A stretch of 60,057 nt of DNA, taken from the NCBI GenBank assembly GCA_903834975.1, contig CAILKX010000160.1, positions 1-60,057 of the forward strand, read 5' to 3'. The DNA is from an uncultured Curvibacter sp. (lineage in GTDB: Bacteria > Pseudomonadota > Gammaproteobacteria > Burkholderiales > Burkholderiaceae_C). Both the position numbers and the translations under genes were made by a program. The stretch's first letter is position 1; each line of letters opens with the position of its first letter. The notes below the pieces were generated by a model, which was not told where the DNA came from, searched no databases, and was given only the letters and a program-made list of their open reading frames with translations. Below are positions 26,363 to 28,934 of this stretch, piece after piece.

Positions 26363-28246
26363 ATGACCAAACAAACCCATTCCTTCCAAGCCGAAGTGGC
26401 CCAACTCCTGCATTTGGTGACGCATTCGCTGTATTCGAACCCCGAAATTTTTGTCCGCGAGCTGGTTTCCAACGCCTCCGATGCCGCCGACAAGCTTCGT
26501 TTTGAAGGCTTGAACAACGCCGCCCTGTATGAAGACAACCCCAATTTGGAAGTGCGCATCGCCTTTGACAAAGACGCCCGCACGCTGAGCATCACCGACA
26601 CCGGCATCGGCCTGACCGAGCAGGAGGCCATCGACAATTTGGGCACCATCGCCAAGAGCGGCACCAAGGACTTCATGGGCAAGTTGAGTGGAGACCAAAA
26701 GGCCGACGCGCAGTTGATCGGCCAGTTTGGTGTGGGCTTTTATTCGGGTTTCATCGTGGCCGACAAAATCACCGTCGAGTCACGCCGAGCTGGCGTTCCG
26801 GCAGACCAAGGTGTGCGCTGGGTCAGCGGGGGCACCGGCGACTTTGAGGTCGAAACCATCCACCGGCCCGAGCGCGGCACCACCATCACCCTGCATTTGC
26901 GTGACGACGCCGAAGAATATTTGAACGCTTGGAAACTCAAGAGCCTGATTAACAAATACTCCGACCACATCAGCTTGCCCATCTTGATGGAAAAGGAAGC
27001 GTGGAAAGAGGGCGAAAACGACCAGCCTGGCAGCATGGTCAAAACCGGCGAGTGGGAAACCGTCAACCAGGCGAATGCGCTCTGGACCCGCCCCAAAAAA
27101 GACATCAGCGAAGAACAGTACACCGAGTTCTACAAGGCCATCAGCCACGACCACGAGGCCCCACTCACTTGGGCGCACAACCGCGTTGAGGGCAATACCG
27201 AATACACGCAGTTGCTCTATATCCCGAGCAAAGCCCCGTTTGACCTTTGGAACCGCGACAAAAAAGCCGGCATTAAGCTCTACGTGAAGCGCGTTTTCAT
27301 CATGGACGACGCTGAAGCCCTGATGCCCACCTACTTGCGGTTTGTCAAAGGCGTGATCGACTCGGCCGACTTGCCTTTGAACGTGAGCCGCGAACTCTTG
27401 CAAGAAAGCCGTGACGTGCGCGCCATCCGCGACGGCTCCACCAAACGCGTGTTGTCGATGTTGGAAGACTTGGCCAAGCAAGAAGACAAGACCCCATACA
27501 ACCAGTTTTATGCCGAATTCGGCGCCGTGCTCAAAGAAGGTTTGGGCGAAGACTTTGCCAACAAAGACCGCCTCGCCAAGTTGCTGCGTTACGCCAGCAC
27601 CCAAAGCGACACGCCCAGCGTCAGCTTGGCCGACTACAAAGCCCGCATGAAAGAGGGCCAAGACGCCATTTACTACATCACCGCCGACACCTTGGCCGCG
27701 GCCAAGAACAGCCCTCAACTTGAAGTCTTCAAGAAAAAGGGCATCGAGGTTTTGCTGATGAGCGACCGTGTGGACGAGTGGTCGCTCAATTACTTGCAAG
27801 AGTTTGACGGCACGCCGCTGCAAAGCGTCGCCAAGGGTGCCGTGGACTTGGGCAAGCTGCAAGATGAAACTGAAAAGAAAGCCGCCGAAGAGGCCGCAGA
27901 AGCCTTCAAGCCTTTACTCGCCAAGCTCAAGGAAGCGTTAAAGGAAAAGGCCGAAGACGTTCGCGTGACCACCCGCTTGGTCGACTCGCCCGCCTGCTTG
28001 GTGGTCCAAGACGACGGCATGAGCACCCAACTCGCTCGCCTGCTGAAGCAAGCCGGTCAGCAAGCGCCTGAGAGCAAGCCCGTGTTGGAAATCAATGCCG
28101 AACACGCTTTGGTTAAAAAGCTCGACGGCAGCGTGCACTTCCATGATTTGGCGCACATCTTGTTTGACCAAGCGCTGCTTGCCGAAGGCGGATTGCCAGA
28201 AGACCCCGCGGCCTATGTGCGCCGTGTGAACGCGTTGCTGGTTTAA
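26363..28246 (+). CDS. htpG: Molecular chaperone HtpG (Hsp90)
   Basis: [58 protein letters not shown]. Confidence 0.96.
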
Positions 28247-28249
28247 AAC

Positions 28250-28808
28250 TTAGAGCGGGCGCCCCAAGCGCTTTTCGACTTCGCGCTTTTCCCATTCCGG
28301 TCCCAGAGGGCCTAAATGGGTGAACACCCCGAAGGCTGTGCATCAACAGACCCAAGCCCCAGCCGAGGGCAGGCCAGTAAAACCACAAATGCTGGGGAGA
28401 GGTCATCAGGTTGATCAAGGCGAGGAAGGGGATTACCAGCACAAAAGCGCCCAAATGCCCGTAAAAACCGCGCAATCGACGCACTTGCTGGAAGGCCAGC
28501 ATTTCTTCTAATTCGCGTGCCCGATCGTGAAGGGCTTGGGGAGGGGGCTGAATGGCTGGCGTGGTCGGCACCGTTGGTGACAGGTTGGTGCTGTTTTCGT
28601 TCACGCTGTGGGTCAGGCTGTCGGTCATGTCGGGCTCCTTGAGGGCTGAAAAGTCGATTTGAAACACAGACGCCAAAGACTTCAACGACTCCACACTGCC
28701 TGGCTGACCTTGCTCCATGCGCTGAATGGTGCGCACACTCAGGCCGCTTAAATCGGCCAGTTGTTGCTGTGACCAGCCCTTTTGCAATCGCAGTTTTTGA
28801 ATCAGCAT
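28250..28808 (-). pseudogene. XRE family regulator with 2TM domain; apparent 1-nt frameshift near 28331 (ORF track reads through to 28113)
   Basis: N-terminal HTH (LRLQKGWSQQQLADLSGLSVRTIQRMEQG), then a two-TM segment; omitting one base near 28331 restores GVFTHLGPLGPEWEKREVEKRLGRPL* ending at 28250, 3 bp from the htpG stop. Confidence 0.65.
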
Positions 28809-28873
28809 GGGTTCTCCTTTGTCTGTGCCGCCATCCTAGGCACCGCGTTGGGTTTTGAACACGTCAGCCACCT

Positions 28874-28934
28874 GACACAGGCCGGACAAAGCCCCGACAA
28901 AGGGGCGACAAAGGGGCGACAGCGGGGCGACAAG
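28874..28934. repeat. Helically phased 11-bp direct repeats (GACA core x6; best units GGGGCGACAAA)
   Basis: GACA at 28874, 28885, 28896, 28907, 28918, 28929 (exactly 11 bp apart), upstream of the XRE-2TM gene start at 28808. Confidence 0.8.

Follow-up and report, generated by a model that had tools for sequence, protein, structure and literature searches.

XRE regulators, which rank with the most common transcription factors of bacteria, are regarded as dimers that bind palindromes; the restriction-modification C-proteins, SinR, and 434 Cro bind as symmetric dimers. We know of no Cro/C1-type helix-turn-helix (HTH) that works as a head-to-tail filament on tandem direct repeats; the protein considered here, if it does so, would be the first. 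LytTR sites are direct repeats, each roughly 9 bp long and separated by a 12-bp spacer, and PhoB, acting as an activator, touches or replaces the -35 contact. A survey of XRE operators covered palindromic motifs only (PMC12565409), and LytTR regulatory systems and other membrane-bound one-component regulators have also been surveyed (PMC6193735, PMC10269533). The Pho box is a pair of direct repeats, each 11 nt long with the core CTGTCAT, and is bound head to tail (PMC4415409). BldC of Streptomyces occupies direct repeats in variable number, with one protomer on each, as a head-to-tail chain (PMC5859096).

The locus described here combines an XRE gene with an array of 11-bp direct repeats. The initial annotation had not recognised the array as a described operator; we likewise found no description of such an 11-bp array in the open literature, although a prior description is possible because the subscription literature lay mostly outside the search.

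The array and the adjoining XRE-2TM gene

The window, that is, the whole stretch of 60,057 nucleotides from an uncultured Curvibacter sp. that was analysed, contains GACA at 28874, 28885, 28896, 28907, 28918, and 28929, giving six cores with a constant step of 11 bp, as originally reported. The copies read TGTCGCCCC, TGTCGGGGC, TGTCCGGCC, and TGTCAGGTG, and the four flanking 11-mers in the initial annotation were also quoted correctly. Read on the gene strand, the cores are TGTC direct repeats on the minus strand, all pointing toward the XRE-2TM gene. The proposed operator (28874..28932, minus strand), defined by the sequence, the shuffles, and the phase in homologs, thus comprises six TGTC(G/A/C) cores, each exactly 11 bp from the next. 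A degenerate seventh copy, TGAC, follows in 11-bp phase on the promoter-proximal side (28863..28866, minus strand); the Limnohabitans array (L055/L086) likewise terminates in TGAC, as do several arrays of TGGC type. The start of the nearest GACA copy and the A of the start codon ATG at 28808 are 66 bp apart, close to the 65 bp or so first estimated. Among all 4-mers at periods of 5-30 bp, the six-copy GACA run was the longest in the window, the runner-up having four copies, and GACA in 11-bp phase reached at most two copies when the whole window was dinucleotide-shuffled 300 times, indicating that the six-copy phase is far beyond chance.

The XRE-2TM gene (28113..28808, minus strand) was read as a 231-aa ORF. 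Pfam placed a Cro/C1-type HTH at residues 3-54 (HTH_3, 1e-11, above the cut-off) and a 2TM domain, hence a transmembrane pair, at residues 107-160 (PF13239, 8.7e-20). The recognition-helix segment SVRTIQR, an instance of the SxRTxQR motif, corresponds to residues 24-30 (28719..28739, minus strand) and was assigned from the alignment, the model helix at 25-32, and the co-variation described below. The AlphaFold model, with a modest mean pLDDT of 66, showed an unordered linker (59-89) that separates a five-helix HTH from two long helices. Structure comparison gave the C-proteins C.AhdI and C.BclI, SinR, and 434 Cro as its closest folds, and this predicted likeness to proteins that bind as symmetric dimers is a point against the array being the regulator's own operator. 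A sequence search of solved structures with the XRE-2TM protein returned no useful match, and the literature retrieved under the 2TM domain concerns glycine-zipper proteins.

Sequence comparison with L006/L054 revealed a single additional G within a GGGG run (28320-28335, minus strand), L006 being on the same contig as L054 in a Curvibacter MAG of the same genus as the source. Because the extra G falls after about residue 160, the conserved tail GxxWEKRxVEKRLGR is lost and the ORF continues antisense into htpG; this frameshift may be real or may be an assembly error. Gene order around the XRE homologs differed, and no conserved neighbours were found. On contig C80 of the source genome, L144:2198-2488 encodes a stand-alone 2TM protein with no HTH. 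Its 2TM domain and the one in the window regulator share 54% identity, and a single mixed TGGC/TGTC pair lies upstream of its gene. This protein could be a membrane partner or a competitor of the regulator.

A possible -10 element, TAGGAT (28833..28838, minus strand), identified by its match to the consensus only, lies 28 bp after the start of TGAC and 30 bp before the ATG. When 88 loci were aligned on the proximal copy, the largest TANNNT cluster lay 27-28 bp downstream, a weak signal (6 + 3 loci, 9/88). A distance of 27-28 bp would place the proximal copy in the -35 zone and the remaining copies further upstream. Such a geometry suits an activator at -35, and also a repressor, with activation slightly favoured.

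Conservation upstream of homologs

Homologs were drawn from relatives, the class, and the phylum, and 300 bp upstream of each of 41 loci were examined. The TGTC-TGTC distances were concentrated at 11 bp (52), 22 bp (34), 33 bp (13), and 44 bp (9); distances of 12-15 bp were all absent, and each remaining distance within 4-45 bp occurred 0-7 times. An exact 11-bp TGTC pair was present in 25 of the 41 upstream regions, whereas shuffling gave an expectation of 0.26 and never more than 2 in 200 rounds. The initial annotation had named absence of the array from orthologous promoters as evidence against its reading, and the array was instead present. In homologs it lay roughly 60-130 bp 5' of the start codon. 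TGTC occurred 132 times and GACA 33 times in the 41 upstream regions, with no favoured TGTC-GACA distance; this strand bias, together with the lack of a preferred inverted spacing, indicates that the operator type is a direct rather than an inverted repeat, and a palindromic operator thus found no support in these regions.

The array was also recognised far from Curvibacter. In Photobacterium sp. GJ3 and in Pantoea sp. At-9b the homolog is preceded by three exact copies, in Aeromonas caviae by two, and in Klebsiella pneumoniae, where it lies beside urtE, by four; the Bradyrhizobium diazoefficiens homolog has a TGTC-TGGC-TGTC array. At the DNA level, no E. coli chromosome yielded a relative of the Klebsiella gene. 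A plasmid gene copy in Klebsiella quasipneumoniae (L339) has an IS110-family transposase gene upstream and the array is gone, whereas the K. pneumoniae copy (L343) has it; this pair is a natural operator loss.

The array followed the HTH and not the membrane domain. The 2TM domain was ruled out as its linked partner, since 2TM-only proteins were essentially without it: a single pair, with the mixed core TGGC/TGTC, was found among 27 loci. In a survey of 12 of the genomes, control HTH_3 genes lacking RTxQR had three in-phase copies in 0/71 cases and a pair in 2/71, whereas RTxQR genes with other C-termini had a pair in three of five. On this comparative evidence the array goes with the XRE HTH lineage that carries the RTxQR helix rather than with the 2TM domain. 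The original link to an XRE regulator therefore stands, whereas the emphasis on 2TM does not.

A relaxed three-copy search of four genomes, which is blind to weaker two-copy targets, recovered the promoter of the regulator itself; the remaining matches were roughly as numerous as those of the reversed-pattern control. Since matches elsewhere were near the control level, the regulator seems mainly to address itself. No second array of four exact copies was found in a scan of the 2.5-Mb source genome; relaxed scans of it gave few matches outside the locus, among them a four-unit AAATGTC-type array, TGTTGCCCAAATGTCGACGAAATGTCGCCCAAATGTC (L142:1490-1526; C162:10750-10786), upstream of a beta-lactamase-family (PF00144) gene, possibly a second target, a Pho box, or a chance match.

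The core base, the recognition helix, and competing explanations

A large group of homologs in another order carries a GxRTxQR helix and has the core TGGC, with at least three copies in phase in 26 of 30 when scored by TG[TG]C. Residue and core were tallied for loci with at least three copies. With S-type helices (SxRTxQR), the third core base was T in the majority of copies at 37 loci, G at 4, and tied at 4; with G-type helices (GxRTxQR), G was in the majority, giving TGGC, at 39/39 loci. About a quarter of S-type genes had fewer than three in-phase copies. The tallies are consistent with a specificity code in which S24 would read TGTC and G24 would read TGGC, residue 24 co-varying with core base 3. 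Four S-type helices were exceptions with mainly TGGC (L301, L337, L263, and L298). L301 has a G-group framework, implying that neighbouring residues must matter too.

Paralogs within one genome were compared because genome composition could cause the pairing of S with T and of G with G. In genome G1125, the S gene is preceded by five TGTC copies and the G gene by TGGC (four of five), and paralog pairs in G1212, G1111, G1200, and G1185 agree with this pattern. Gene and promoter are inherited together, and a tree from which the helix residues had been left out showed about four residue changes and about five core changes, with two well-supported independent pairs and none in the opposite direction. 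The co-variation is thus consistent, although it does not reach significance by event count because the independent switches on the tree are too few.

These data bear on who binds the array. The Pho box has 11-nt direct repeats with a CTGTCAT core (PMC4415409), and among the pattern-scan matches were genuine Pho boxes, one of them consisting of four TGTC copies in phase upstream of the gene for a PhoX phosphatase. The array might be bound by PhoB, or by a different regulator of the OmpR family, and the XRE-2TM gene would then respond to phosphate or a similar signal. However, while the arrays share the 11-nt direct repeats, they lack the CTGTCAT core and the A/T-rich 4-nt spacer: the base after TGTC is G in 50/76 copies, and the spacer is 47% A+T. 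The array is also linked to one HTH lineage, and the split between TGTC and TGGC among same-genome paralogs, each according to its own recognition helix, argues against any one shared outside factor and cannot be explained by one PhoB. We therefore regard a Pho-type site as quite unlikely here; joint use by PhoB at some S-type promoters is possible.

Another transcription factor, encoded elsewhere and specific for these promoters, might bind the array in place of the XRE protein. This idea gains from gene and promoter travelling together with few independent switches, and from XRE binding being itself only probable. Such a factor would nevertheless need a specificity that changed whenever the XRE recognition helix did, even among paralogs of the same genome, and we consider it very unlikely.

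The adjoining window units hardly differ from one another (CGACAAAGGGG), a sign of local duplication that speaks for a neutral tandem repeat generated by replication slippage. Loss of phase and core in close relatives would favour slippage, whereas the opposite was seen in G001, where four of five spacings are exactly 11 bp and one is 21 bp. Across classes the spacers diverge but the core and the 11-bp phase are kept, and the place and orientation of the array are fixed relative to the gene. Slippage may have added copies to the window array, yet it does not explain the conservation, and a purely neutral origin is highly improbable. The near-identical units are probably local duplicates of a repeat whose 11-bp phase is itself conserved far beyond the source genome.

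Integrase arm-type sites or transposon ends, suggested by 11-bp GGACA arrays that the family pattern scan found adjoining tyrosine integrases with an arm DNA-binding domain, were rejected as hardly credible: the GGACA arrays that were checked are unrelated to the XRE array, their flanking bases differ, the genes tested around the window locus include no integrase or transposase, and the XRE array is kept before one regulator lineage. The GGACA arrays (TGTCCCCGCTT repeated) lie near tyrosine integrase genes at L036, L042, L051, and L052, and also at L035 and L037. In the two tested, L042 and L051, the gene encodes an Arm-DNA-bind_3 domain and the array lies about 170-195 bp past the stop codon. 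Arrays of the L036/L042/L051/L052 type are probably arm-type integrase sites.

Proposed mechanism and comparison with known systems

The array is most probably the operator of the adjacent XRE regulator, which would control its own gene through head-to-tail cooperative binding, with the proximal copy over the -35 zone. The SxRTxQR recognition helix would read one TGTC(G/A) core per helical turn, and several protomers would line up head to tail along a single face of the DNA; because they would adjoin on that face, binding would be cooperative. At the regulator's own promoter, the proximal copy would occupy the -35 zone. The 2TM two-helix hairpin would anchor the protein in the inner membrane, so that occupancy of the array might report the membrane state or the amount of regulator. 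The parts of this proposal differ in strength. Co-variation and conservation together make it very likely in our judgement that the regulator binds its own array. Head-to-tail oligomerisation, deduced from the direct repeats only, is likely. Positive feedback is marginally preferred to negative, and the chances of membrane sensing are about even. The initial annotation had proposed same-face cooperative binding of multimers and plausible autoregulation by the XRE-2TM protein; the array in 25/41 orthologous promoters and the core/helix co-variation lend support to this reading.

The array lies before related genes across many Proteobacteria, with a core that changes with the recognition helix, and is very probably the regulator's own switch. 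That a widespread, mostly membrane-anchored Pseudomonadota family of small XRE proteins with an RTxQR helix forms head-to-tail filaments on 11-bp repeats along one DNA face, follows an S24/G24 code, and has its own promoter as its main or only target may or may not hold, with equal chances either way. If true, the system would be a self-contained, membrane-linked feedback switch. A conserved XRE lineage acting on tandem direct repeats with a one-turn period would give the XRE fold a further mode of binding, provide a simple protein-DNA recognition code that a single substitution (S24G) could probe, and assign an operator to many genes labelled only "helix-turn-helix domain-containing protein". 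It would also serve as a warning that 11-bp TGTC repeats are not always Pho boxes.

Among known systems, the Pho box with PhoB shares 11-bp direct repeats, a TGTC core, several units, and tandem head-to-tail binding, the last presumed here. PhoB, however, is an OmpR-family response regulator with a winged helix and a receiver domain, unlike the XRE protein, and the Pho box has a CTGTCAT core and an A/T-rich 4-nt spacer, with neither a tie to an XRE gene nor a TGGC form that follows the helix. BldC resembles the present system in its variable number of direct repeats and in the head-to-tail chain proposed here. It differs in its 9-bp repeats (AATTNNNNC), its MerR-like winged helix, and its size as a soluble 68-residue protein (PMC5859096); with an HTH_3 domain and an 11-bp period, the window regulator falls outside the BldC family, which is defined by a MerR-like winged helix and 9-bp repeats. 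LytTR systems are likewise membrane-anchored regulatory systems, but they use a different DNA-binding domain and, with repeats of roughly 9 bp set apart by a 12-bp spacer, do not form an 11-bp array. Finally, 434 Cro, the restriction-modification C proteins, and SinR share the Cro/C1 HTH fold, the usual autoregulation, and an operator adjoining the regulator's own gene; known XRE operators, however, are mostly palindromes bound by symmetric dimers, whereas the array described here consists of direct repeats with a period of one helical turn.
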